DNA from: Microcoleaceae cyanobacterium UBA11344
GTDB taxonomy: Bacteria > Cyanobacteriota > Cyanobacteriia > Cyanobacteriales > Microcoleaceae
Direction: 5' to 3'
DNA: 11,912 bases
Assembly: GCA_003483675.1 (NCBI GenBank)
Contig: DMYK01000059.1
Location: 1 to 11,912, forward strand
In this document: positions 1 to 11,912 of the stretch, piece by piece
Position numbering within the stretch: position 1 is the stretch's first letter
Layout of the letters: the number at the start of each line of letters is the position of its first letter
The notes under the pieces: model-generated
Database searches by the model: none
The model's input: only the letters and a program-made list of their open reading frames with translations
What the model was told of the DNA's origin: nothing
Program-made: the position numbers and the translations under genes

Positions 1-24
1 TCACGTTCCGTTCTGAAGGAGAGG

Positions 25-44
25 TAGGAGTGGCAACGCTCCTA
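25..44. repeat. Hairpin with GCAA tetraloop at the left edge
   Basis: TAGGAGTG (25-32) pairs with CGCTCCTA (37-44), with one G-T pair, around a GCAA loop of the GNRA type. It lies in a non-coding stretch (1-215) that also has a C-run near 72-78 and T-rich tracts. No T-run follows it directly, so it is not a clear terminator. It may be a dispersed palindromic repeat. Nothing else in 1-215 can be supported as a gene. Confidence 0.5.
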
Positions 45-215
45 TCGACTCTAACTTTATTATATTATATTCCCCCCCACGCACCGCCCTAACATTTTGT
101 TTTTTGTTTTGTGGTGCTATTCTTTTATAACCATTTTTTAAATCGCTTGTCAAGTACCTGTAACAATTCTTTACATTAAGCGATCGCCAAACAACCACAT
201 CAGCAACAAGCACGC

Positions 216-461
216 TTAAGAGACGTAATGCACCCAAAATTCATCATCATAAGCACACTTGCGTATTATCAATTCGTAGCTGTAATGCAAGGCCTTTCCC
301 GTGGCTTCAGTATCGTAGCCACTCTCAAACCACTCGCCGTATGGATCTTGTACAAAAAATCCCTCATTATCAAAGCCGATTAGCACGATAATATGTCCGG
401 CCGCCGTAAAGTATCCGTGAATAATACAGGGATTATCGGCGCTTAAGTGGGCCGTGAACAA
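216..461 (-). pseudogene. C39-like cysteine peptidase, C-terminal remnant cut by an IS element
   Basis: This minus-strand reading frame ends at a TAA at 216-218. It encodes the C-terminal half of a protein resembling the cyanobacterial peptidase C39-like family (papain-like fold, double-glycine-type peptidases). The visible family signature is HGYFTAAGHIIVLIGFD, which carries the catalytic His in GHIIV. It is followed by VQDPYGEWF, which carries the third catalytic residue (Asp/Asn region), then LHYSYELI and a WVH tail. The N-terminal half with the catalytic Cys is absent. Upstream on the coding strand the reading frame runs straight into the right-end hairpin of the adjacent IS200/IS605 element at about 464, and there is no credible start codon (the first possible one is a TTG at the junction). 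The fragment should be inactive. Family assignment is by motif recognition and is fairly secure; the physiological substrate is unknown. Confidence 0.72.
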
Positions 462-463
462 AC

Positions 464-488
464 CTAACGGTCAAGGTCGTACCGTTAG
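464..488. repeat. Right-end subterminal hairpin of the IS200/IS605 element
   Basis: CTAACGGT (464-471) and ACCGTTAG (481-488) form an 8-bp stem around a 9-nt loop. It sits 52 nt beyond the tnpB stop codon and next to the truncated peptidase reading frame, where IS200/IS605 elements carry the imperfect hairpin bound by TnpA as single-stranded DNA. The exact cleavage point cannot be fixed from the sequence; it should lie a few bases toward lower coordinates, around 455-463. In active relatives the tnpB 3' end plus this right end also encodes the TnpB guide RNA (reRNA/omegaRNA). Confidence 0.6.
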
Positions 489-540
489 ACCGCAGGCTTC
501 TTTTTCCCTTTTTTGCAAGGGCTTTTTTGAGTGACGAAGT

Positions 541-1897
541 TCAAGAGCCACTTTCATAATTCAGACCAATTCTTTTGATCAGCTTGGCTGAATTTTCATC
601 TCTATCCAAAGACTCCCCGCATTGACAAGAATGCCATCGGTCTGACAATTCTTTCGGCACTTTATTGAGGCAATGACCACATTGTTGAGAAGTTCCTTTC
701 GGGTCAACAAATAGAACACTTTTACCTAATTTCCAAGCCCCATAAGAACAGTAGCGAATTGACCATGAGAGGCATCAAGCATTGATTTATTCAAGCCACT
801 TTTAGCTGCTTGACCATTTGGCCAATAAATCAAGTTGCCATTCTCAATATCTGTCTTGACTTGAGCAAGTCTAGTTAGATTTTTGAGACTTAAATCTTCC
901 AGGATTAAAACATCACATTTGTCAAATAACTTATGTGCTGTTTTGAACTGAAAATCTAGTCTAGCTCTAGCTACAAATTGGTGAAGTTTAGAAATTTTAC
1001 TCTTGATAATCTGCCCAGGTTTAGACCCCTTAATTCTATTAGCTAGTTTCGCCTGAAGTCTTGCTAATTTCTCGGCAGACTTTCTGAAGAATCTAGGGTT
1101 TTCAATTCTTTCGCCATTGGAAAGGTCAACGTAATTAGTGATTCCCAAATCAATACCAAGAGTGTTTTCGTCAGTCGGTTGAATTTCTACAACCGTTACA
1201 GGAACTGTTTTGTCTTCTAGTGTTAGGGAAATATACCACCGAGGAGCTTCTCTGATAACTGTTCCCGTCTTAACTTTGAATCCTGTTGGTATTGAACGAT
1301 GGAAAACCATCGGTACTTGACCTATTTTGGCGAGGTCAATACAAATCCGATTTTGCTCATCCTTGATAATGTTTAAATTATCAAGTTGTGGGTAAGTGAA
1401 AGATTTGTAATAGTGGAAACCTTTAAACCGAGGTTTTCCCCTACGATTACCATTCTTGTCGGGTGTTGTGAAATTTGAAAAAGAAGTTTCCACTCGGTTA
1501 ACTACAGCAAAACCTGAGAATCCAAGTTCTTGTATTCAGGAAATAGTTTCTTGGTATTTTTCAAGTCAGATAACTGTACATTCAACCATTGCACATACCC
1601 GCCATCAATGTTGGAAAAAATATCCCCTTTTTTTGTTATGGTATTGCCATTTTCATCCTTTTTTCTACCGTCTCTAGTTTGTATCCTCGTTAGAGGAATA
1701 TTCTTGTAAATTTCCTCAAGGGGGACTATCGACACGGTTAAAGGACAGGAATTGATAGGTGTTCTAGTTGATTCCCACCACCTAAACCTTTCCCCTAATC
1801 GGTAATTGTATTGTCTTCGGCAAAGTTCTAAATGAGCCGATATCGTTACAAGTTGGGCTTTTGTGGGTTTGAGGCGGTATTTGTACGTTAGTTGCAT
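541..1897 (-). pseudogene. tnpB: TnpB RNA-guided nuclease of the IS200/IS605 element, two frameshifts
   Basis: The family start is MQLTYKYRLKPTKAQL, with its ATG at 1895-1897; the upstream extension of the frame is spurious. Segment one runs to about 1502. Segment two (about 1493-726) resumes at VVNRVETSFSNF and carries KPRFKG, RuvC-I GIDLGITNYVDL and RuvC-II LILEDLSLKN. A second frameshift near 735-750 moves the C-terminus into another frame, where I read VLFVDPKGTSQQCGHC, then WHSCQCG and DRDENSAKL (RuvC-III Asp), ending at the TGA at 541-543. All three RuvC acidic residues can therefore be found, but not in one frame. The zinc ribbon is also odd: the second half is C-x-C (CQC) instead of the usual C-x2-C. 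The rebuilt length, about 450 residues, suits a full-length TnpB. In living relatives TnpB is an RNA-guided DNA endonuclease that cuts the donor site after excision. Confidence 0.88.
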
Positions 1898-1974
1898 TGA
1901 AAACTTCCTTTTTTTCGACCTTTTTACAGTATAGTTGGCGTAGGTCAAAAATGCAACACTGAAAAAAAAGAAAT

Positions 1975-2277
1975 ATGAAAGACGATTTTGTATCAAGCGC
2001 TCGGTCGGTTTCAGACATTAAAGCTCATCTAGTTTTATGTACCAAATATAGACGCAAAGAGTTTAATACTGAGATGCTGGCTAGACTCAAGGAAATATTC
2101 GCCGATCTGAGTGAAAAATGGTCGTGCAAACTCATAGAGTTTAACGGTGAAGAAGACCATATCCATTTACTATTTCAGTATTATCCGCAGATGGATTTGT
2201 CAAATTTGTTTACTACGATCGCAAATCTGGTCGGATTTTTGGTGAACGTCCAACGGGCGATCGGTCGAAAAACGTAG
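1975..2277 (+). pseudogene. tnpA: TnpA HUH transposase of IS200/IS605, C-terminally truncated
   Basis: The frame starts at ATG 1975 with MKDDFVSSARSVSDIKAHLV, a typical IS200/IS605 TnpA N-terminus, followed by TKYRRKEF, LIEFNGEEDHIHLLFQYYPQ and MDLSNLFTTI. HIH in DHIHLL is the metal-binding HUH motif. After about residue 82 (near 2222) the family continuation (the SSR.. helix, the SYF region and the final helix with the catalytic Tyr) is missing; the last 18 codons are read from an unrelated sequence in the wrong frame. The protein is therefore expected to be dead, because the tyrosine that forms the 5'-phosphotyrosine link is lost. It is divergent from tnpB, as in IS605. Confidence 0.85.
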
Positions 2278-2636
2278 TTTGCTTCCAAAGTAAATGGGAA
2301 TTTCAAGTCTATCAAGCGATTAAAGAGTATTACTCGGATGATTCGATTGAGTTGCAATACCCGATTCAGGTAAAGTCTTTGACGTTACATTCTGCGTCGA
2401 TTACATATTGCGACTTCCAGATTGAATTAGCAAACAAACAAAATCTCTTCGTTGCAGCAAAAGAAAAAATGACTCCAGAAGCTTTATTGAAATTAAAGTT
2501 GTTGGAAGTTGTTTTCCCTGAATATCGCGATCACTTGATTATTGTCTCTCAACTTCCGCAATACTATTTTGGGAAGCGATTTCCGCCATCGCTAAATTTG
2601 GCGCAATTTATAAAGAGATTGCCATATGACAGGTAA
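2223..2636 (+). pseudogene. PD-(D/E)XK nuclease-like remnant (TnsA-like), 5'-truncated
   Basis: The open frame ending at TAA 2634-2636 gives a continuous protein-like sequence from about 2223 (KSGRIFGERPTGDRSKN) but has no ATG or GTG before 2352, so the start was lost at the junction with tnpA. The motif order is SKWEFQVYQAI (acidic residue in helix 1), QYPIQV, YCDFQIE (Asp of the core beta strand) and LFVAAKEKMTPEALLKLKLLE. This order matches PD-(D/E)XK endonucleases such as Tn7 TnsA (Glu, Asp, then (E/Q)-x-Lys). The (E/Q)-x-K position reads A-A-K, so one catalytic acidic/polar residue appears replaced by Ala. The downstream gene overlaps it by 11 bp. Fold assignment is from motif spacing only and is an inference. 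The remnant is probably inactive. Confidence 0.5.
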
Positions 2637-3047
2637 CACAAAATCAATAGAAAGTGATGTTTTTGAGTCTATTCACTGGACATCTATCCAGTTACCTGGA
2701 TTACGCAGTATGCCAAAGGGTATATTGGATGGACAGATAAAGGTAGTTCAAAAAGTTCTGTTTTTGAATGAATCCATTAGGAATAACAAAAGGCATCCAG
2801 AAGTTGTTGTTTATGACAATGACTTTATCAAATACTTGTTGTTTACGACCATTTCAAGCATTATTACCGATTCTTTGATTCGTTCATCAATCAAGATGAC
2901 CGTTATCTTCTTGAGTCCGAACTTCAAAGAGTCAATGCAATTTTGACTGAAGATTTGTCTAACTCAATCAATGAAGCCGTACAAGTTTGGAGGACAAATT
3001 TGTTAGGATTTAGCGAATTGGGAGTCACTTTGGGATTGACACAATAA
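2626..3047 (+). pseudogene. Unknown gene, overlapping the nuclease frame and frameshifted
   Basis: ATG 2626 lies inside the end of the nuclease-like frame (11-bp overlap), which suggests translational coupling in one transcript. The first frame runs to 2946. Its last 25 or so codons lose protein character, while the other frame becomes protein-like from about 2830 (YDHFKHYYRFFDSFINQDDR) and continues through LLESELQRVNAIL and NEAVQVWRTNLLGF to a TAA at 3045-3047. One indel around 2815-2860 would join them into about 140 residues. I see no X-XXY-YYZ slippery heptamer there, so decay or a sequencing error is more likely than programmed frameshifting. I do not recognise the family. Mixed hydrophobic and charged composition, with no signal peptide or membrane segment. 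Confidence 0.55.
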
Positions 3048-3189
3048 ATTATATGCAAAGCTTACAAGTTTAAGTTTGCAGACAAGAACCACTTGGTTAA
3101 AAGGGGTAGTCTAGTTGTATAGCGTGACTGACGTGAGTTTGCACAAATCACACCGTCCTAGACGTAGAAAGGGTGACCACAACTAACTT

Positions 3190-3221
3190 AAGAATAAGAC
3201 CTTACGTAAGACTTTATTCTT
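3190..3221. promoter_or_regulatory. 32-bp interrupted palindrome upstream of the 252-residue gene
   Basis: The layout is AAGAATAA (3190-3197), a 3-nt spacer, the self-complementary CTTACGTAAG (3201-3210), a 3-nt spacer, and TTATTCTT (3214-3221). The outer arms are perfect reverse complements and the whole is symmetric about 3205/3206. It lies 23 bp before ATG 3245, just upstream of the AGGAG ribosome-binding site (about 3235-3239), in the only sizeable gap (3048-3244) inside the gene series. The position and two-fold symmetry fit an operator for a dimeric or tetrameric repressor. The ribbon-helix-helix-like protein of the same series is a possible partner, but this is inference. Confidence 0.5.
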
Positions 3222-3244
3222 GAGTAACAACAATAGGAGTAAAC

Positions 3245-4003
3245 ATGACAATCAACTTTTCAACAAACAAAGACGGCATTAGCTCTTTGTATGTCAATTA
3301 CGAATCATTGAGCAATAGCGATTCTATTTACTGGGATGAAGCAGTAATTTTTCGAGATGAGGACAAAATTACAATCTTTGGGATTATTTCTAGCGCATCA
3401 CGGGGTGTAGTTAGTTATAAGGATCGGAATTGGAGGCCAGATTTTCAAGAATGTACTTTGAAAATTTACGCTAAAAAGAAGTCACAATGGGATACTGCTA
3501 GCAGTAAATTTATTACTGTCGATGTAGGTAAGGAAGAAGCTCACCTTTACTTGGTACTGTTAACAATACAAACGACTAACAGTAATAACGCAGTATTAAG
3601 AGGGCCTCTTAATCCCTGGTTAAACCCATTTTTCTGGGATGTGAATTTATCAGATCCTGCAAGCGATCATATTGGTGAACAGTTCGTAAAACAACTTCAT
3701 CAGCTCACGTTGCATCCAAATCCGTCAAGACTGTCGGTTACGCAAATTCAGCCACAGGAAGCAAGCGTCAAAAAGTTAGGTGGTGGCGGTAATTGGGCAA
3801 AGGGAGAGACAGAATTAGAAAGACTTATTGTGAGATCACAATATCTAGAATCTCAGGGGACCCTTATTTTCGATTACAAATCGTTGTACGACTTGGCCTC
3901 TCAGATTGAAGCAATGAAAAATGAACCGACAACACCTGATATACTGCTCTGCCGTACAATGGACACTCTGTTGGAATTGATAAAAATTATCATGGGTAAT
4001 TAA
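3245..4003 (+). CDS. Hypothetical protein, 252 residues, in the accessory island
   Basis: ATG 3245 follows a good AGGAG at about 6-nt spacing, and the frame is open for 252 codons to TAA 4001-4003, the longest intact frame of the island. I do not recognise the family. The N-terminal half alternates short hydrophobic beta-like segments (AVIFRDEDKITIFGII, HLYLVLLTIQT). A middle stretch is rich in Pro, Trp and Asn (NPWLNPFFWDV). A GGGG linker lies near residue 180, followed by an amphipathic, probably helical C-terminus (ELERLIVRSQYLESQ to TLLELIKIIMGN). There is no signal peptide or transmembrane helix, so it is likely cytoplasmic. The ATPase gene starts 3 nt after its stop, implying co-transcription and possibly a shared task. 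A 32-bp palindrome precedes it. Confidence 0.75.
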   Translation: MTINFSTNKDGISSLYVNYESLSNSDSIYWDEAVIFRDEDKITIFGIISSASRGVVSYKDRNWRPDFQECTLKIYAKKKSQWDTASSKFITVDVGKEEAHLYLVLLTIQTTNSNNAVLRGPLNPWLNPFFWDVNLSDPASDHIGEQFVKQLHQLTLHPNPSRLSVTQIQPQEASVKKLGGGGNWAKGETELERLIVRSQYLESQGTLIFDYKSLYDLASQIEAMKNEPTTPDILLCRTMDTLLELIKIIMGN

Positions 4004-4006
4004 ATT

Positions 4007-5175
4007 GTGACAAACACAGAATCGAGCGTTGATACTGAAATAGCAAAATTTACTATTAACGACTTCGCTAAACTGATGAATGTTGAAGATGACAGTAGTA
4101 TTAATCTAGTCAATACTACTGTCGCAATTGGCTCTAGTGTCACTAATTGCTTGCAGAGTGTAACAAAGGGATTAAAGAGTTGGGAGTATAAATTTATCGC
4201 ATCCTACGCGCTTATACCTTCCGTACTCTGTCACGTTTTACCGATCGTACAAATGGACAATCTGGTTGTGGTAAGTCTCAATTGTTAATCGCAATTTCAC
4301 ATCTCACGAAGTATCAGATTATAAGCGGGCAGAGTACGGGGGCTAGCCTAAAAAATCACATTAATGTGATTCGATGGGTTGACCCTGAATCAAAAAAGAA
4401 GGAGAAAAATTGTCTCCTCTTGATAGACAATTTGAAGGAGGATTGCTTTAAGAAAGAAGAGTATTTGAGTTCTTTCTTAAATGGTTATAACAGATTAACC
4501 GATCGGACTTATATCAGTAACGGCAGGGGTGAAAATATCGAGTTCAGAACATTTTCGGGCAAAATTTACACAACAATCTGGGAAAATACGAGTACGGAAT
4601 TAAAACGACGGACAATTTCTATCAAGGGAAACAAGACTGATAAACTGAGTGAAATTCTTGATGTCGAAGATATTAAGTGGTCGTTATTTCGCAAAAAAAA
4701 AATTAATTTTTGGGAGGATGAGGATAATTGGACAACTTTTGCAAAGAACCGAAAGCTGTTTTTAGAACATCAGAAGCCTGGAGGATCAAAAGAGCTCTGG
4801 TTACTCTTACGAGACGTAATGGCGACTGGATTAACAGTTGGTGTCTGGGACACAATAGAGTCTTGTGTTGATGAGACTTTTGAGTGGTTAACTTATTCTT
4901 TAAAGCCTCGTCAATCCTTGTTAGAAGCTTTGCTAGTGTTAGCTTGAGAGCGTGAACTGGGGTTTACTAGAAATCCCTGGGAACTCCTTGCGTCCTCTGT
5001 TCAAGTGCAAGTTTCTCCACGGGCCATTCAAATCGCGATCGACGATGGCATTAAAGATGGCTTGATAGAGAAACCTCAAGTTACAGAGGTTCAGCAAATT
5101 TTATCAAAACTAGGTTTCGCACCCGGCAAAAAAGAAGGAGTATTAGGGTATATATTCAAAACAATGAAAAGTTAG
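4007..5175 (+). pseudogene. P-loop ATPase/helicase-like gene of the island, frameshift plus in-frame TGA
   Basis: GTG 4007 starts a frame that is protein-like to about IASYALIPSV (near 4220). The continuation lies one frame away: RFTDRTNGQSGCGKSQLL carries a Walker A motif (GQSGCGKS, about 4255-4278). LLLIDNL (about 4414-4434) is a likely Walker B. FRTFSGKIYTTIW followed by LKRRTISIKG resembles a sensor-1/arginine-finger stretch of cyanobacterial AAA-type or superfamily 3-like ATPases. The frame stops at TGA 4945-4947, but the same frame stays protein-like beyond it (ERELGFTRNPWELLASSV, SPRAIQIAIDDGIKDGLI, SKLGFAPGKKEGVLGYIFK) to a TAG at 5173-5175, and reads like a C-terminal winged-helix-type region. 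The intact ancestor would be about 390 residues. A role in element replication or target selection is inferred only from context. Confidence 0.65.
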
Positions 5176-5185
5176 GAGTGATCTC

Positions 5186-5446
5186 TTGATACATATGTTG
5201 GATTACCTATTATTGGCTCCAGAGGATACCGCTAAATTCAAGACACAAGTCGCCAAACAATTTTTGTCGGGGTCACATACTTTAATCGAGTTTGGCTACT
5301 TTTTTGATTGGCTTAGCGATGAGTTGGCAGTGGATGATGATGATTTTATTGAGGAGTGGTCAACATCAGGCACTAGAGAGTTTAAAACTAGATTATTGTC
5401 TCTCTCAATCCTACAGTATTCTGAATCATTACGAACAACAACCTAG
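5186..5446 (+). CDS. Hypothetical acidic protein, 86 residues
   Basis: An AGGAG at 5174-5178 favours the TTG start at 5186 (7-nt spacing) over the ATG at 5195 (16 nt); either gives almost the same protein. It begins 10 nt after the last stop of the ATPase remnant, so it belongs to the same transcript. The sequence has a helical N-terminus (LDYLLLAPEDTAKFKTQVAK), a hydrophobic aromatic stretch (FGYFFDWLSDEL) and an acidic run (AVDDDDFIEEW). There is no signal peptide, membrane helix or family I recognise. Small acidic partners of ATPases or nucleases occur in mobile elements, but no function is claimed. Confidence 0.55.
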   Translation: MIHMLDYLLLAPEDTAKFKTQVAKQFLSGSHTLIEFGYFFDWLSDELAVDDDDFIEEWSTSGTREFKTRLLSLSILQYSESLRTTT

Positions 5447-5499
5447 TTTAGTCTAGTCCGGGATGACTTTAAACTATCTCAAATTCCAAAAGAAAAACG

Positions 5500-5859
5500 A
5501 TGAGTAATATCAAGACACAAAAAAATTCAGATTATAATCGCAGAGGCAGAGCCAAGAAAATAGCCGACAATATCGACAGAATTCAAGAAAAAATTGATGG
5601 TTTAAAGCCATCAATAGAATGTGTTTCGCATACTACCAAAGAAGGCGAGTTGCTGGCATTTATAAATTCCGTAAATCTTGCTTTGGAAAAAATCAATCTA
5701 CGTATTGATGAGTTAGCTTTTGCGATACTTACTCTAGAACGAGCAGGAGACAATCGAACTGGAGCTATAGGTGCTCACAACCAACTCGTTAATTCAGTTG
5801 AAAATCTTGGAAATTCAGTCTGCAATTTTGCGGAATCAGTCGGCGAATTTGTGGAGTAA
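5500..5859 (+). CDS. Hypothetical helical/coiled-coil protein, 119 residues
   Basis: ATG 5500 begins a frame to TAA 5857-5859, preceded by an A-rich sequence with only a weak ribosome-binding site. The N-terminus is basic (KNSDYNRRGRAKK). The body has heptad-like spacing of Ile and Leu (IADNIDRIQEKIDGL, NLALEKINLRIDELAFAIL), suggesting an oligomerising coiled coil. The end repeats an amphipathic pattern (VNSVENLGNSVCNFAESVGEF). The basic N-terminus and coiled coil would suit a nucleic-acid-associated or structural protein. I do not recognise the family. Confidence 0.6.
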   Translation: MSNIKTQKNSDYNRRGRAKKIADNIDRIQEKIDGLKPSIECVSHTTKEGELLAFINSVNLALEKINLRIDELAFAILTLERAGDNRTGAIGAHNQLVNSVENLGNSVCNFAESVGEFVE

Positions 5860-5865
5860 TTCACT

Positions 5866-5979
5866 GTGGGCCTACTTGATACTGTCGGCCTGAACCGCCT
5901 CTCTAGTGAACAATGGCAAGTGAGCCAGATAATTCTTGTTAGCGATGACGACAAATTAGAGCCTGACAAGCTTCTATGA
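5866..5979 (+). CDS. Possible small ORF, 37 residues, ATGA-coupled to the next gene
   Basis: GTG 5866 opens a frame of 37 codons ending at TGA 5977-5979, which overlaps the ATG of the next gene in an ATGA arrangement. It fills the otherwise empty gap after the 119-residue gene, and a GGAG lies about 10 nt upstream, within the previous gene. The product would contain LNRLSSEQWQVSQIILVSDD and an acidic tail, with no recognised family. The overlap geometry favours a real, translationally coupled ORF, but the short length leaves chance as a serious alternative. Confidence 0.3.
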   Translation: MGLLDTVGLNRLSSEQWQVSQIILVSDDDKLEPDKLL

Positions 5980-6239
5980 TGATGGCAATAAAGACTGTTT
6001 ACGATATCGCTCAATCAGAATTGGATAAACGATTAACCGCGATTGAAGAAAGACTTGCTAAAAAACCTAAGCGAATTAGGAAGAATCCTACTATCGCTTT
6101 CGAGTTAAATCAGGAACTCTACGATGAGCTTACAAAGGCAATTTCTGACTTTAAACTGGAAAATCGCAGTCAATTAATGCGATCGATAGTCCGAAGATGG
6201 CTAACTATCGATAAGTCTAATGATGAGATTGAATTTTAG
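5976..6239 (+). CDS. Small ribbon-helix-helix-like DNA-binding protein
   Basis: Three successive in-frame ATGs (5976, 5979, 5982) begin an 87-codon frame ending at TAG 6237-6239. Residues about 15-35 form a charged helix (LDKRLTAIEERLAKKPKRI). From about residue 38 the pattern IAFELNQELYDELTKAISDF then ENRSQLMRSIVRRWL fits a MetJ/Arc-type fold: a short beta strand, helix A and helix B, the second starting at NRSQ. Such proteins bind DNA as dimers and often autoregulate mobile-element or toxin-antitoxin operons. It is the last gene of the plus-strand series, just before a strong terminator. It could act as repressor of the island (for example at the palindrome near 3190) or as a recombination directionality or relaxosome factor. 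Fold assignment is from pattern only. Confidence 0.6.
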   Translation: MMMAIKTVYDIAQSELDKRLTAIEERLAKKPKRIRKNPTIAFELNQELYDELTKAISDFKLENRSQLMRSIVRRWLTIDKSNDEIEF

Positions 6240-6307
6240 GTAGAGGATTGTATTCTATATGTGTGTACAATTCGATTGATGTAAATTAGCGTCAGGTCGG
6301 GACGTAC

Positions 6308-6351
6308 AAAAAAAATAACCTTTAGAAATTAATCTAAAGGTTATTTTTTTT
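6308..6351. terminator. Strong bidirectional rho-independent terminator
   Basis: TAACCTTTAGA (6316-6326) and TCTAAAGGTTA (6333-6343) form a perfect 11-bp stem with a 6-nt loop. Eight T (6344-6351) follow it and eight A (6308-6315) precede it, so it works on both strands. It separates the plus-strand gene series ending at 6239 from the convergent integrase gene ending at about 6380. Confidence 0.93.
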
Positions 6352-6379
6352 GTAAATAAAGCCTTAAATAAGAGCTTAT

Positions 6380-7872
6380 TTACTTCAGTTTGTCTAGTAT
6401 ATCCTGAATAGTGATACTGTAAATTTCAGCTACGAGAGCGATCGCTGGTCGCACTACTCTATTATGATTAACGTCACAGAGTGATCAACATCTAGATAAT
6501 GTTTGAGGATAACATCGACGCTATTCTCACAACAAGCGGCTAGCAGTGCCAGTGCTGACGAATTCTCCTTGTTGGCCCACGCCGTCAAGGTAATGAAAGT
6601 GTGCCTGGTATGATAGGGGGATAGGTAAGTATTCAACTTGCCGTCCTCTATCAGCCGGGTTACAACTCCGGGGTAGGGGACGGTTTTATTTTTTCTTGTC
6701 TTTGTAAATCCCAACCACAGAGCACCTTGTAACGCGCTGCTATAAGTCCGACCATTTTCTTGTTTAAACACTAAGTCTTTAAGCTTAGTATCATCAGGTT
6801 GAATCCGTTTTAACAATTCTGTTAAACGCGGGTAAAGGAAAAATTGTCTGATGCCGTTGTTCTTGGTGACTTTCACGTCCTTGATAGATGCTGAGTAACT
6901 TTTATTAAACCAGATAAAGTCAAATCTGACGTTATTCCATACCAGAGCAAAAGCTTCACCGGGACGGCAACCAGTCAAGAACAAGAATTCAATAAGCGGT
7001 GCTATTTGACGATCGCTCGCCTGATCAGACTCATAGAATGCCTTGATGATAATGTCGCGTTATTGCGCTGTAAAAGCGCGCTTGTCACTCTCTAAAGCAT
7101 CCTCTGATTGAGCGTCCCGCACCTCCCACCACTTCCAGATTTCCCCGTCACTCATGACGACCGGTTTGTATTTGTCACGGGGATCAGGTTGGTCTTGTTT
7201 CAAGTTTTGAAACGGGTTAATGGTAAGCTTGATTTTGCCTTGACTTTGAGCGCGTAAGAACGCTTCATTGAGTGAAAAAATCAAGGTGGATTTTAGACCC
7301 GGTGTCAGAATTATTTTGTCTACTAATTCTGAGTTATCAACACTCAATGCTTGATCCCAAACACTGTTACCAGTATCTGAGAATATATGGGTTTTCTGAT
7401 CCCATTTAAGACCTTTAAGAGCGTTGGGGTACGTCACTAAATATCGTAGTTTAAACGTACTTGCCTCAACCTGAGTCTCTTTCCATACCAGATAGTCCTC
7501 CCACATAGCACCAACAGTCATTTCTGGCTCAACCTGCTTTGTACCAGGCAATTGTAGTACATCGCCCAACTTGGCATACTTGGCGCTACCGATGCCGTAC
7601 TTAGCAAGAGTGGGGTCAAACAGTTTGAGCCACTCAGGGTGATCGAGATCGGCTTCCATTGCGATCGCAATTTGTAAGGCACGCTTCCGGTCCTCTGGAT
7701 TGTTGCTAAAACCGTGCTTACCTAAAAAAAAGCACTTTTGCTTTTTAGGAGCCTTACCATCCAAAATTGCCCACAATGGGTTATGTCGGATCGGGAAACG
7801 TAGTGCTAGTTGATTTCGGTCATGGAAAACTGCAATGTCACAGCAGCGCTCGGTTTCCTGAGATTTTTGCAT
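6380..7872 (-). pseudogene. Tyrosine recombinase (phage-type integrase), nonsense codon and 3' frameshift
   Basis: ATG 7870-7872 begins a frame with an N-terminal arm-type region of the cyanobacterial integrase kind, including FDPTLAKYGIGSAKYAKLGD. It is interrupted by TAA at 7060-7062 (after KRAFTAQ) and continues in the same frame through LIEFLFLTGCRPGEAFALVW (catalytic Arg I), then YHTRHTFITL (the H-x-x-R box, with Tyr at the first position) and VDVILKHYLDVD (nucleophilic Tyr at codon 6496-6498). Shortly after that the frame ends at TAG 6454-6456, while another frame reads RPAIALVAEIYSITIQDILD to a TAA at 6380-6382, so a second lesion near the 3' end is likely. The intact length would be about 495 residues. 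All catalytic boxes are visible, so decay is recent. Integrases of this family insert elements by site-specific recombination. It marks one edge of the island and faces the terminator. Confidence 0.85.
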
Positions 7873-7880
7873 AATATGTG

Positions 7881-7893
7881 GCCTGTAACAGGC
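7881..7893. promoter_or_regulatory. 13-bp palindrome just upstream of the integrase start
   Basis: GCCTGT, a central A, then ACAGGC form a perfect 13-bp dyad 9-21 nt upstream of the integrase ATG (minus strand). It lies where a ribosome-binding site or operator would be; no other purine-rich ribosome-binding site is visible. It could be an autoregulatory operator or an mRNA hairpin that limits integrase translation. A pair of direct repeats TACTAGA (7915-7921 and 7926-7932, 11-bp period) follows further upstream. Confidence 0.35.
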
Positions 7894-7982
7894 ACTCTTA
7901 TCGAGGTTCAGTTGTACTAGACGATTACTAGATATTAAATGTTAAGCACTTAATTCAAGTCGATCGCATAGTATGAATTCAA

Positions 7983-8175
7983 TATAGGATGGATTTTCCG
8001 CAGATGTGTGCTGGTTTACGGGATGCCGCTTAAAGCTGTGATTCACGAAAAATTTGGTGACGGGATTATGAGTGCGATCGATTTTACTTTGGATGTGGAG
8101 AAAGAAGCGGACCCGAATGGCGATCGGGTAAAAATAATTATGTCGGGAAAATTTTTGCCCTACAAAAAATGGTAA
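7983..8175 (+). pseudogene. cynS: Cyanase (cyanate hydratase) 3' remnant
   Basis: From about 8004 the frame reads [20 protein letters not shown], then [20 protein letters not shown] and a GKFLPYKKW end at TAA 8173-8175. This is the C-terminal third of cyanase, the enzyme that turns cyanate and bicarbonate into ammonia and carbon dioxide. The catalytic Ser of the GIMSAIDF segment is present. The Arg and Glu of the YRFYE segment should lie just upstream; there the DNA at 7983-8003 still resembles a YRFYEMLLVYG coding sequence but is scrambled by small indels. No earlier part of the gene is visible, so the active decamer cannot be made. The loss of the 5' part coincides with the edge of the integrase-bearing island. 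Confidence 0.85.
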
Positions 8176-8258
8176 GCCAGCTTTTCCAGGTAGAAAGCAG
8201 AATTTTTTGAAGGAATATTTTTTTGAAGGGATCAGTCGGAATTTTTGATTTTTATTTC

Positions 8259-8300
8259 TGACTAATGACTAACGACTGATGACTAATAACTAATGACTAA
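8259..8300. repeat. Six heptamer tandem repeats (TGACTAA type)
   Basis: Six consecutive 7-mers fill the interval exactly: TGACTAA, TGACTAA, CGACTGA, TGACTAA, TAACTAA, TGACTAA. Short tandemly repeated heptamers of this sort are characteristic of intergenic DNA in filamentous cyanobacteria. They lie between the cyanase remnant and clpX, about 155 nt upstream of the clpX start. Confidence 0.9.
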
Positions 8301-8443
8301 GGCCTCAAAAGTGTTAACTTAGAGACAGATCGCGAAGCTGGAGTGGCTTGGGTGTCCGATCGCCAAACCTGACGAAAGAAAAGAACAATGTTCGATCGCG
8401 CCAAAACTCCCTCAGTCGAAATAGACAACCGCAACTGTAAATT

Positions 8444-8449
8444 AAGAGG
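8444..8449 (+). promoter_or_regulatory. clpX ribosome-binding site
   Basis: AAGAGG, 5 nt before ATG 8455, fixes the clpX start. The leader from 8301 to 8443 contains several GATCG sites (for example near 8360 and 8394) but no promoter that I can call with confidence and no other gene. Confidence 0.6.
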
Positions 8450-8454
8450 CAAAT

Positions 8455-9837
8455 ATGTCAAAATATGACTCCGATCTAAGATGCTCCTTTTGCGGCAAGT
8501 CGCAGGAGTACGTCCGCAAGTTAATAGCTGGGCCCGGCGTGTACATTTGCGATGAATGCGTCGAATTGTGCAATGAAATTTTAGAAGAGGAGTTCTTTGA
8601 CGCTGGAAAAACAGTCGCTCAACAGGTTCCCCAGTCAGAGATTCAAGAGCCTCAAGGACAAAAAACGCGACGCCAGGGTCGATCGAACAAATCCAAAATC
8701 ACTTTAGCTAAAATTCCCAAACCCACTGACATTAAACAGCATTTAGACAACCACGTCATCGGTCAAAACTCAGCAAAAAAAGTCCTTTCTGTAGCAGTTT
8801 ACAACCACTACAAGCGCTTAAGCGTTGACCAAGCCAAAGATAGCGGCAAATCTTCCCCAGACAGCGATGTGGAACTGCAAAAGTCCAACATCATGCTAGT
8901 GGGGCCGACTGGTTGTGGCAAAACTCTGTTAGCGCAAAGTTTGGCGCAAATGCTAGAAGTGCCCTTTGCGGTAGCCGATGCAACGACGCTGACGGAAGCA
9001 GGCTATGTCGGCGACGACGTAGAAAATATCTTGTTGCGGCTTTTGCAAATGTCAGATTTTGATGTCGAAGCGGCGCAGCGCGGCATTATTTATATTGATG
9101 AAATTGACAAAATTGCTCGCAAAAGCGAAAACACTTCGATCACGCGGGATGTATCAGGAGAAGGGGTGCAGCAAGCGCTGCTAAAAATGTTGGAAGGAAC
9201 GGTGGTTAACGTACCTCCGCAAGGCGGCCGCAAGCATCCTTACCAAGATTTTATTCAAGTTGACACGAGCAAAATTCTATTTATTTGTGGCGGTGCTTTT
9301 GTCGGTTTGGAAAAGATAGTTGAACAGCGTTTGGGTAAAAAATCCTTGGGCTTTATTCAGCCTGTTGAAAGCGACAGCAACTCAACATTGCCGGCGAAAG
9401 ATAAGCGGGCGGCAGATATTTTGCAGCAAGTACAAGCCGATGATTTAGTGAAGTTTGGTTTAATTCCTGAATTTGTCGGGCGGATACCTGTAGTGACGGT
9501 GATTTCGCCGCTGGATGAGGCAGCTTTGATGCAGATCTTGACTGAGCCTCGCAATGCGCTGGTGAAGCAGTATCAAAAGCTGTTGAATATGGATAGTGTG
9601 GAGTTGGAATTTGAGCCGGAGGCGCTGCGGGCGATCGCCCGCGAAGCTTACCGCCGCAAAACAGGTGCCAGAGCTCTCCGCAGCATTTTAGAGGAGTTAA
9701 TGCTCGATGTCATGTACGAGTTGCCTTCTCGCAAGGATGTAGCTAACTGCAAAATTACTGCTGAAATGGTCGAGAAGCGATCGACTGCTGAATTGCTGTG
9801 GCATCCGGCTTGGCGCAAACAGCACGAAACTGCATAA
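8455..9837 (+). CDS. clpX: ATP-dependent Clp protease ATP-binding subunit ClpX
   Basis: ClpX is the hexameric AAA+ unfoldase that recognises tagged substrates and feeds them into ClpP in the cytosol. The 460 residues contain the N-terminal C4 zinc-binding domain (C10, C13, C32, C35), a variable linker (about 50-90), Walker A GPTGCGKT (150-157), the pore-1 loop GYVG, Walker B YIDEID (Asp215/Glu216 region), the RKH loop ([10 protein letters not shown]), and the ClpP-docking loop, here LGF (298-300) rather than IGF. Sensor and C-terminal small-domain motifs ([24 protein letters not shown]) are complete. Length is slightly above the common 420-450, owing to the linker. In many bacteria and cyanobacteria clpX follows clpP, but here the upstream sequence is a heptamer repeat and a broken cyanase gene, so clpX appears to have its own promoter. 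Confidence 0.97.
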
Positions 9838-9847
9838 TTTGTAATCT

Positions 9848-9872
9848 GTAAGGTGCGCAATGCGCACCCTAC
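9848..9872. repeat. GTGCGCAATGCGCAC palindrome downstream of clpX
   Basis: GTAAGGTGCGCAATGCGCAC followed by CCTAC forms a near-perfect long hairpin starting 11 nt after the clpX stop. It is the same unit as the array at 10572-10695, so it is a dispersed palindromic repeat, and it may also act as a transcript-end hairpin for clpX. There is no long T-run after it. Confidence 0.85.
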
Positions 9873-9931
9873 AAATTACTAAACAAGCCCCCAGATTGAT
9901 CCGTGAGGTAGCTTTCGCTTTCTCCAATCCA

Positions 9932-9966
9932 AAATCTCAAATCTCAAATCTAAAATCTAAAATCTA
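9932..9966. repeat. Five heptamer tandem repeats (AAATCTM type)
   Basis: Consecutive 7-mers AAATCTC, AAATCTC, AAATCTA, AAATCTA, AAATCTA, followed by a degenerate AAATTGA. This is a second, unrelated heptamer array of the cyanobacterial intergenic kind. It directly precedes the cobalamin riboswitch leader. Confidence 0.85.
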
Positions 9967-9999
9967 AAATTGATTGGTCGCAAGTGTGGTAAGATTTGG

Positions 10000-10130
<131 letters not shown>

Positions 10131-10161
10131 ACTCACTTTTGAACGCATCTGCGAGGTACGG

Positions 10162-10572
10162 ATGATGGATGGAATTAATGCGACTGTACGAAATAAACAC
10201 AATTTATTTGTTTGCACTGCTTGCGCTAGTGTTTGGAAAAACGGCAAGCGATCGGGCAAAAGCGGCGGTCAACAATTCATGGAAGACTTGTCGCAACTAG
10301 CTAAAGATTGGGAATTATCCGATGAATTTGATATTCAAGAAGTAGAGTGCATGAGTGCTTGCAGTCACTCTTGTGCTGTGTCTTTTGCTGCTGCTGGAAA
10401 ATACACTTATCTGTTTGGTGATTTGCCTCCCAATGAAGCTGAAAGCGTCGAGGCTGTGCTTGAATGCGCGAGTCAATACTATGCTAAATCGGATGGTTTG
10501 TTGCCCTGGTCTGATCGTCCTCAAGCTCTGAAAAAAGGCGTTTTAGCGAAAATCCCCCCGCTGCAAAATTAG
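10162..10572 (+). CDS. DUF1636 family putative metal-binding protein
   Basis: 136 residues of the DUF1636 family, small predicted metal-binding, ferredoxin-like proteins that occur with cobalamin synthesis and cobalt-uptake genes. Cysteines are arranged as FVCTACAS (C18, C21) and VECMSACSHSC (C63, C67, C71), resembling a thioredoxin-like [2Fe-2S] or metal site. No signal peptide or membrane helix, so cytoplasmic. ATG 10162 is followed by a second ATG at 10165; GAGG at 10153-10156 suits either. A B12 riboswitch lies directly upstream and a CobW GTPase gene follows after a repeat array (150-nt gap). A role in cobalt handling for B12 synthesis is likely from context, but the reaction is unknown. 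Confidence 0.88.
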   Translation: MMDGINATVRNKHNLFVCTACASVWKNGKRSGKSGGQQFMEDLSQLAKDWELSDEFDIQEVECMSACSHSCAVSFAAAGKYTYLFGDLPPNEAESVEAVLECASQYYAKSDGLLPWSDRPQALKKGVLAKIPPLQN

Positions 10573-10695
10573 TAGGGTGCGCAATGCGCACCCTACCGCT
10601 AATTTTCTGGTGCGCAATGCGCACCTTACCGCTAATTTTCTGGTGCGCAATGCGCACCCTACCCGCTGAAGAATGGTGCGCATTGCGCACCCTAC
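10572..10695. repeat. Array of four GTGCGC palindromes spaced 33 bp apart
   Basis: Palindromes centred on GTGCGCAATGCGCAC occur at 10576, 10609, 10642 and 10675 (start of each GGTGCGC), an exact 33-bp period. The first is extended to GTAGGG...CCCTAC (10572-10596). Copies 1-3 share the spacer CGCTAATTTTCTG, while copy 4 has the core GTGCGCATTGCGCAC, the reverse complement, and a different spacer. The array fills the gap between the DUF1636 and cobW genes. In RNA it would form strong hairpins and could protect or attenuate the transcript. A fifth copy lies downstream of clpX. Confidence 0.95.
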
Positions 10696-10722
10696 AGTAC
10701 ATCTAAACCTGAGAAAAATTTA

Positions 10723-11757
10723 ATGCACAAAATTCCTGTTACAGTCATCACTGGCTTTTTAGGTAGCGGCAAAACTACCGCAATTCGCCACTTATTGCAA
10801 AACAATCAAGGCCGCCGCATCGCAGTTATTGTTAATGAATTTGGCGAAATAGGTATCGACGGAGAACTGTTGCGTGATTGCCAAGTTTGCGATGATGAAG
10901 GAGATGCGATTACCAACATTGTAGAACTCACAAATGGCTGTCTTTGCTGCACTGTTCAAGAGGAATTTTTGCCCACAATGCAAGAATTATTAAAGCGTCG
11001 ATCGCAAATTGATTGTATTCTCATCGAAACTTCTGGACTCGCACTCCCTAAACCTTTAATTCAAGCTTTTCGCTGGCCGGAAATTCGCACTGGTGCTACC
11101 GTAGACGGTGTGGTGGCTGTAGTGGATTGTGAAGCCGTTGCTAGCGGTACTTTTGTGGGCGATATTGATGCTTTGATGGCACAGCGGCAGGCTGATTCTA
11201 GTTTAGATCACGAGACACCGATCGAGGAATTGTTTGAAGACCAGTTGGCTTGTGCTGATCTGGTACTGTTGACTAAGGTCGATCGCGTGGATGATGAAAC
11301 TCGCCACAAAGTCCAAACTTGGTTGCAGCAAGAATTACGCCCTAGTGTTAAAATTGTCCCTTGTAAGGGTGGCGAAATTAACCCTGATGTGTTATTGGGA
11401 TTTAATGCGGCAGTTGAGGATAATTTGGAATCTCGGCCGAGTCACCACGACACCGAGGAAGAACACGAACATGATGATGATATTACCTCAACTTATTTTA
11501 TTGCCGATCGCCAATTTGAACCTGAAGATTTGGTAAAAAAACTGCAATCATTGATGCAAAGTCAAGAAATCTATCGGATTAAAGGGTTTGTGGCTGTTCC
11601 CAAGAAACCGATGAGGATGGTGTTGCAGGGTGTGGGTTCGCGCATCGAACATTTTTACGATCGCCCTTGGGAACCTTCCGAACTGCGGCAAACAAAATTG
11701 GTGTTCATCGGTCGAGAACTCGATCGCGATCGAATTGCAGCGATAATTGGCAATTAA
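10723..11757 (+). CDS. cobW: CobW/COG0523-family GTPase (metallochaperone)
   Basis: 344 residues of the G3E GTPase family. Walker A is GFLGSGKT (11-18), the metal-binding CxCC motif is GCLCC (C73, C75, C76), and the switch-like ETSG (102-105) and nucleotide-specificity TKVD (184-187) are present. A His/Asp/Glu-rich insertion (241-253, HHDTEEEHEHDDD) is the usual metal-collecting loop. The C-terminal CobW_C domain runs from about 258 (STYFIADRQFEPEDL) to the end. Family members deliver cobalt, zinc or similar metals to client enzymes. The shared B12 riboswitch leader with DUF1636 supports a cobalt/cobalamin role; a zinc role is the main alternative, because zinc-responsive relatives look alike. 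Start ATG 10723 fits the family N-terminus; no strong ribosome-binding site is visible. Confidence 0.93.
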   Translation: MHKIPVTVITGFLGSGKTTAIRHLLQNNQGRRIAVIVNEFGEIGIDGELLRDCQVCDDEGDAITNIVELTNGCLCCTVQEEFLPTMQELLKRRSQIDCILIETSGLALPKPLIQAFRWPEIRTGATVDGVVAVVDCEAVASGTFVGDIDALMAQRQADSSLDHETPIEELFEDQLACADLVLLTKVDRVDDETRHKVQTWLQQELRPSVKIVPCKGGEINPDVLLGFNAAVEDNLESRPSHHDTEEEHEHDDDITSTYFIADRQFEPEDLVKKLQSLMQSQEIYRIKGFVAVPKKPMRMVLQGVGSRIEHFYDRPWEPSELRQTKLVFIGRELDRDRIAAIIGN

Positions 11758-11774
11758 TCACCCACGCTGACCTC

Positions 11775-11810
11775 AGAAACCGGGTTTCTAGCCCCAGGCG
11801 CCAGCCCTGG
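11775..11810. terminator. Hairpins downstream of cobW
   Basis: AGAAACC (11775-11781) pairs with GGTTTCT (11783-11789), and CCAGG (11794-11798) can pair with CCTGG (11806-11810). The first is an interspersed palindrome of a type common in this cyanobacterial group. Together they could end the cobW transcript 18 nt past its stop, but the T-tract is poor, so a dispersed repeat is an equal reading. Confidence 0.4.
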
Positions 11811-11839
11811 TTAAAAACTCTTAACATTTTTTGAAATTG

Positions 11840-11869
11840 TTGGCGCTGTCAGCAAGTCTGGTGTACAAT
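11840..11869 (+). promoter_or_regulatory. Promoter for the gene at the right edge
   Basis: TTGGCG (11840-11845) and TACAAT (11864-11869), preceded by TG, are separated by 18 nt and match sigma-70-type -35 and extended -10 boxes. The expected start of transcription falls inside the dyad at 11872-11886. A second TACAAT at 11890-11895 is a possible alternative -10. Confidence 0.5.
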
Positions 11870-11892
11870 AGCGATAATGGTTATCATTGTAC
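11863..11892. promoter_or_regulatory. Fur/Zur-type operator candidate
   Basis: CGATAATGGTTATCA (11872-11886) matches the 7-1-7 Fur-family core TGATAAT-N-ATTATCA at 12 of 14 positions. The dyad extends outward into GTACAAT (11863-11869) and ATTGTAC (11886-11892), with a 3-nt asymmetry on the left. It overlaps the transcription start region of the promoter, so a bound repressor would block initiation. Whether the regulator is Zur, Fur or another member cannot be told from the sequence; a CobW-family neighbour makes a metal regulator plausible. Confidence 0.5.
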
Positions 11893-11909
11893 AATAATCG
11901 AGGTAAAGT

Positions 11910-11912
11910 ATG
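11910..11912 (+). CDS. Start codon of the next gene, cut by the window edge
   Basis: ATG at the last three bases, preceded by GAGG (11900-11903) at a 6-nt spacing and by a promoter with a Fur/Zur-type dyad. The product cannot be read. Candidates from context are a metal transporter, a metal-independent paralogue or a cobalamin gene such as cobN, but this is a guess. Confidence 0.5.

Follow-up and report, generated by a model that had tools for sequence, protein, structure and literature searches.

A decayed relic in a Microcoleaceae genome that very probably belongs to an apparently undescribed family of cyanobacterial integrative elements

We analysed a stretch of DNA from Microcoleaceae cyanobacterium UBA11344 (hereafter the window: bases 1-11,912 of the 16,256-base contig DMYK01000059.1, from a genome of 4.78 Mb that is 75% complete), in which a sequence-only reading had proposed a dead integrative element of cyanobacteria. 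The window very probably contains what is left of one such element, from an undescribed family. The copy in the window is a dead relic; the family itself is real, apparently undescribed, and includes copies that seem intact. The proposal was borne out in that the same gene set recurs, better preserved, in repeat-flanked elements with an integrase at one end. The relic comprises a series of genes on the + strand, encoding a nuclease-like protein, proteins of 106 and 252 amino acids (aa), pieces of a P-loop ATPase, proteins of 86 and 119 aa and an 87-aa ribbon-helix-helix (RHH)-like protein. This one-directional series, the strong hairpin behind it and the tyrosine integrase that faces it were confirmed by the open reading frames (ORFs), by folding and by a PHROG match, respectively. 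The coordinates of all features are given in Table 1.

The assignment to the family was made with profiles built from 15 of the 26 loci outside the window that we compared (10 loci were added later). These profiles matched the window integrase with an E-value of 4e-40, the ATPase with 3e-37, the 252-aa protein with 1e-13 and the nuclease with 1e-7, the best match in 50 shuffled windows being 6e-4. The locus closest in kind, G743, comes from the same family as the window host and presents an integrase followed by the small protein (F2), the nuclease (F3), the 250-aa protein (F1) and the ATPase (F0). This set spans about 7.4 kb, with a mutM-like gene on one side and an mdh-like gene on the other (named by eye), and its integrase is 51% and 43% identical to the two pieces of the window integrase.

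The relatives were found through the ATPase. A profile of the Microcoleus ATPases gave matches in 5 of the 386 genomes searched across the phylum, among them the window's own genome, and a conserved gene order was seen around the matches. A wider profile found matches in 19 of the 217 genomes of one family, of which several were weak (E above 1e-9), and in 39 of 388 genomes of the order, where 11 matches were weak (E above 1e-9, over short stretches, some with several stops). The broadest protein search returned at least 62 proteins at E 1e-5 or better, nearly all annotated as 'hypothetical'; this is a lower bound, since the Microcoleus ATPases of the earlier search are not among them. Organism names were shown for 12 of the 62, all of them cyanobacterial. 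Ten loci came from Atlanticothrix, Nostoc linckia, Komarekiella, Mastigocoleus (two contigs), Calothrix (two), Dulcicalothrix, Rivularia and Richelia. The 26 loci were picked by ATPase match and are a part of all such matches, and several are copies within one genome, so that not all are independent.

The sequence-only reading had suggested looking for the same gene order beside an integrase in other cyanobacterial genomes, and this order was indeed found: the core order F2, F3, F1, F0 is present in 17 of the 26 loci, including 6 of the 10 later ones (five of six genomes). At three more loci (G182, G782a and G782c) F1 did not score 1e-3 or better, and three are incomplete (G782b, G782d and G198, the last, L022, containing no more than the ATPase and a fragment of F2 close to the end of a contig). 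The remaining three (G548a, G548b and G526) carry related genes in another order. In the latter loci (L066-L068) the nuclease and small-partner genes come after an ATPase of about 485 aa, and we take these loci for a third element type that is more distant. Integrases of family F4, to which that of the window belongs, occur in 8 of the 26 loci, always on one side of the operon and reading in the operon direction. A second integrase-like group lies on the same side in five more (G579, G453, G608, G795 and G653); it matches known integrases through G579 (1.2e-13), G608 (1.3e-6) and, weakly, G653 (0.002), and the G795 and G453 genes had no family match of their own.

At the level of sequence, the better-preserved relatives are shown to have the integrase gene at one end of an element of 9-23 kb bounded by direct repeats, at the 3' end of a tRNA gene or elsewhere, and the integrase would be what integrates them. 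Direct repeats of 16-65 bp were found in 7 of the 26 loci: at tRNA genes in G182 (48 bp, tRNA-Thr), G795 (65 bp, tRNA-Gly) and G608 (27 bp, tRNA-Leu), and at other sites in G236a (22 bp), G236b (18 bp), G469 (24 bp) and G579 (16 bp; this repeat alone could be due to chance, and it sits 128 bases before the integrase-like gene). The G346 element splits a MarR-like gene. The repeats of G453 and G475 were not accepted as element ends; in G743 they are tandem 7-mers, which we left uncounted; G653, G720 and G782 showed no clear repeat at their ends, and G436 yielded none. G453 has a tRNA-Leu close to its right end, of which the stretch examined contains no second copy. Several genomes hold near-identical copies. 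Those of G236 are 98% identical over 12.5 kb and two of G720 are 98.7% identical over 15.1 kb; the one-contig genomes G782 (L128-L135) and G720 (L136-L139) have four ATPase matches each. Among those copies that were compared, long stretches show 98-99% identity, and in G782 the differences form a mosaic.

In the window the ATPase gene is broken into pieces (4007-4288, 4282-4947 and a continuation to about 5163) by a break in frame within the P-loop region, near 4250, and by an in-frame TGA at 4945-4947, beyond which the C-terminal part continues. A cluster representative from three contigs, P0003, is nearly identical to it and has an unbroken P-loop, with the same endpoint as the window stop. 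The ATPase piece had 14 matches in 5.8 billion proteins, its own included, and the named relatives were Microcoleus. The host would thus be a Microcoleus-like, filamentous cyanobacterium. In a tree, nine Microcoleus-type proteins (P0003 standing for the window) formed one group on a long branch with 100/100 support. The structural model of the relative P0012 contains an AAA+ core with the MCM arrangement, and MCM helicases were its top structural matches among those listed; the modelled ATPase thus resembles MCM/SF3-type helicases, and its C-terminal part is read as a winged helix. Sequence searches of the PDB with three core profiles were weak (ATPase 0.025, to unrelated names; nuclease 0.018, to Bax1 endonuclease; 250-aa protein 0.1).

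The other core proteins are in different states of preservation. PD-(D/E)XK nucleases depend for catalysis on an E...D...E-x-K motif. This motif is complete in 11 of 12 aligned rows (alignment A8); the window copy, the twelfth, retains the first Glu and the Asp and has Ala in place of the second Glu (that of E-x-K). It also matched DUF1064 at 0.0017, under the cut-off of that family. The reading frame of the 252-aa protein is open, and this protein had two matches in 5.8 billion proteins, one of them itself. By eye the 106-aa ORF resembles the small 'HWSEL' partner F2, for which it is a possible candidate; hhalign gave 3%.

A number of observations weigh against the assignment to the family. 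Four of the ORFs (106, 86, 119 and 87 aa) had no convincing match among 39 family profiles, the model of the 250-aa protein is poor (predicted local distance difference test score, pLDDT, 62; best PDB structure match E 0.13), and Pfam MCM had no sequence match in the four ATPases scanned. The ATPase was not found in 28 other genomes of the genus. The repeat search of the window found no flanking repeats, and the window has no recognised element ends, the left one being gone. Further points concern the integrase, and together they leave some room for an alternative that we consider rather doubtful, namely that the operon is a relic of the family and the adjoining integrase an unrelated solo remnant, placed there by accident. 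Compared with the eight relatives that have an F4 integrase, the window integrase is inverted and sits 3' of the operon, so that the facing orientation seen in the window does not hold as a rule of the family. Elsewhere in this genome, the short contigs C153 and C605 carry two related integrases without the module, the former intact and the latter broken, and the guanine-cytosine (GC) content of window 7001-8000 is 0.44, near that of the host, against 0.37-0.39 in 2001-7000. Nevertheless, G743 joins a related integrase to the same module, and F4 integrases recur in the relative loci as described above. We therefore consider the membership of the operon in the family to be firm and that of the integrase likely, and the pairing of the two in the window probable, not proven.

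The solo integrases at L007:5667-7094 and L006:3794-5266 share 75% and 71% DNA identity with the window integrase, whose own C-terminal piece matched a PHROG integrase at 4.3e-17 and whose two pieces matched the F4 profile at 4.2e-40 and 1.7e-5. The window (7976-7987) and L007 (about 5549-5560) have in common the stretch CTATATTGAATT, upstream of the integrase and of its intact sister; it lies about 105-120 bases before the integrase start and may be a remnant of an attachment site. L006:5779-10152 looks by eye like another type of integrative element, in which a second integrase precedes small genes and a CHC2-like zinc-finger protein. The hairpin that separates the operon from the integrase in the window has a folding energy of -26.8 kcal/mol for 6296-6366 (z -7.4; none of 200 shuffles was as good). 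It is long and A/U-rich with a U run and so differs from the consensus GC-rich terminator; a consensus terminator scan did not pick it up.

The four-gene set looks like a replication module. We propose that the core operon (small protein, PD-(D/E)XK nuclease, 250-aa protein and MCM-like ATPase) would copy the excised circle, the helicase unwinding the DNA and the nuclease nicking or resolving it. The 250-aa protein could be a DNA-binding partner, a role that is a guess because of its poor model and structure match. In the window, an IS605-type element and deletions would have taken the left end, and stops and frame breaks would have killed the rest.

The larger members of the family carry a second, divergent gene block that looks like structural, lysis or adhesion genes, and the family may therefore consist of temperate viruses or satellites. 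Tentatively, and with more doubt than confidence, we suggest that the relatives may be undescribed small temperate cyanobacterial viruses or satellites, with virion proteins that go unrecognised and an MCM-like replicative helicase, missed by virus catalogues, and that they may be the kind of mobile DNA from which the gene-interrupting elements of filamentous cyanobacteria arose. It is unlikely that the larger relatives are ordinary tailed prophages that have merely diverged. Such an origin would agree with the endolysin of the close relatives G475 and G469 (PHROG 2.1e-49 and 4.4e-48), with an F5/8-type C protein in G236 that matched tail (6e-5) and virion-structural (0.0027) PHROGs, with a further virion-structural match at 0.16, and with long coiled coils in the block that are tape-measure-like by eye. 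However, of the structural-block proteins of G236, G346, G432 and G548 that were scanned (a selection of their ORFs), none matched terminase, portal or major (HK97) capsid proteins, the delimited elements are only 9-23 kb long, and two ATPases and two long structural-block proteins matched none of 50,697 phage records.

A nuclease beside an ATPase is also a common layout of defence systems, and the window nuclease gave a single weak PADLOC match (PD_DExK, 0.0029). Nine of the ten proteins had no PADLOC match at 0.01, however, and the module recurs in repeat-bounded elements, some with structural-like and endolysin genes, which makes an anti-phage defence island of nuclease, ATPase and partner proteins highly improbable. 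The least probable reading, for which we see next to no room, is a remnant of a Tn7-like transposon or CRISPR-associated transposon (CAST), with a TnsA-like nuclease, as the sequence-only reading had called it, and a TnsC-like ATPase. Tn7-like CAST elements occur in cyanobacteria and, like the window, have a PD-(D/E)XK nuclease adjoining an ATPase. The Pfam TnsA domain was found in none of the four nucleases scanned, though, the ATPase model is MCM-like with the set looking like a replication module, the relatives have integrases and tRNA-site repeats in place of a DDE transposase, and no TnsB transposase was present among 10 window proteins scanned against Pfam. A 485-aa gene of G475 at the expected integrase position, earlier taken for an integrase, is a DDE transposase that we read as an insertion sequence (IS). 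On the model and domain evidence we rejected this reading.

Table 1. Features of the window (E-values unless otherwise indicated)
Feature	Position	Strand	Evidence
Host gene fragment, C39-peptidase-like by eye	216-461	-	ORF list; interrupted by IS
IS605-type element: truncated tnpA, broken tnpB	462-2226	.	tnpA by PF01797, tnpB by eye
Broken tnpB, label by eye	726-1996	-	ORF list
Truncated tnpA	1975-2226	+	PF01797 positions 1-74 of 121, 3.3e-21
PD-(D/E)XK-type nuclease gene	2205-2636 (approximate)	+	profiles F41 3.7e-9, F3 1.1e-7
Frame-broken ORF, with 106-aa ORF at 2626-2946	2626-3047	+	F2 profile only 0.1; hhalign 3%
252-aa core protein, family F1	3245-4003	+	F1 profile 1.3e-13; 59% identical to P0002
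MCM-like AAA+ ATPase pseudogene	4007-5172	+	F0 profile 3.1e-37; fold from relative P0012
86-aa ORF	5186-5446	+	no relatives found in Pfam, PHROG and family-profile searches
119-aa coiled-coil-like ORF	5500-5859	+	weak family matches only, best 0.037
87-aa RHH-like ORF	5976-6239	+	weak: RHH_1 0.18, NikR-type 0.0058, PHROG integrase profile 0.0034
Perfect inverted repeat, terminator-like	6305-6354	.	22-bp repeat arms; folding
Tyrosine integrase pseudogene	6457-7872	-	two pieces, one frame, one in-frame stop 7060-7062
Host cyanase gene, C-terminal fragment	8009-8172	+	PF02560 3.3e-27; junction about 8009

Both flanks of the relic had been described as truncated genes, and this part stood, the cyanase being cut and tnpA stopping at 2226; the edges had to be revised. 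On the left, the 5' end of the nuclease gene is fused to tnpA, and this fusion is no element end. On the right, the best match of the flank in all 28 other genomes of the genus starts at query position 136, 137 or 141 (window 8008, 8009 or 8013), inside the cyanase gene, so that the right edge, as placed by homology, is at about 8009, give or take four bases, and not at 7893. The left-flank query stretch 309-440 matched several places in relatives of the genus. Outside the relic, a cobalamin riboswitch (RF00174, 47.2 bits) at 9992-10139 precedes a small ORF and a gene that by eye is of the CobW type, and between host genes at 9852-10707 a 33-base repeat with the palindromic core GGTGCGCAATGCGCACC occurs five times.

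No match of the set to a named prophage, plasmid or transposon emerged in the searches made. Two ATPases and the window operon DNA matched none of 72,556 plasmids, and five queries matched no IMG/VR viral contig in a search whose sensitivity was limited by the short exact patterns that it requires. No phage or plasmid relative of the three-protein core was found in the searches made. A search of genome contigs with A1 gave no family match. In Pfam, nothing exceeded the cut-offs for four ATPases and four 250-aa proteins, and in PHROGs nothing fell below 0.01 for the G236 ATPase, the window ATPase piece and the window 252-aa protein. A description of the family was not recognised in the literature searched, of which coverage was partial; the accessible parts of PMC10187409, PMC5894146, PMC5862659 and PMC4874684 describe no such family. 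The family brings together dozens of 'hypothetical' cyanobacterial proteins in a single type of mobile element, of which there are delimited and seemingly intact copies, and its replication genes are unlike those of the databases searched.

Several known systems share features with this family. Islands, satellites and proviruses with tyrosine integrases, such as tycheposons and PICMIs, as far as the accessible descriptions go, likewise have the integrase at one end, direct repeats and tRNA 3' ends as targets, whereas the family described here has a common core of MCM-like ATPase, PD-(D/E)XK nuclease and 250-aa protein. The MCM-like and SF3-like helicases of mobile elements (NrS-1, PriRep1; bacterial MCM, PMC5862659), judged from the parts of the sources at hand, have a fold like that of our ATPase model; in contrast, our ATPase has no Pfam MCM match, is about 400 aa long and has no recognised primase domain. 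The elements that interrupt nifD, nifH and hupL in heterocyst-forming cyanobacteria are, like the family, cyanobacterial and bounded by direct repeats, and here, besides the split gene of G346, an element of the family lies between nifH fragments in G579. On contig C305 of this Richelia-like genome (L064/L065/L103), a broken serine recombinase is next to an N-terminal fragment of nifH, and about 25 kb from there a second fragment has another serine recombinase next to it, the family element lying between the two fragments (names by eye). Rather than a nifH element of the family itself, this is better read as an element between nifH fragments with broken or separate serine recombinases, and the arrangement reflects either interruption elements or an assembly error. 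Unlike the interruption elements, the relatives also occupy tRNA genes, and the accessible text of PMC4874684 mentions no common replication module. According to that text, 52 of 100 recombinase genes of the interruption elements are of the tyrosine type, and their origin is unclear, viral remnants having been proposed (PMC4874684). The family bears on the question raised there, whether viruses left behind the elements that interrupt genes in cyanobacteria.
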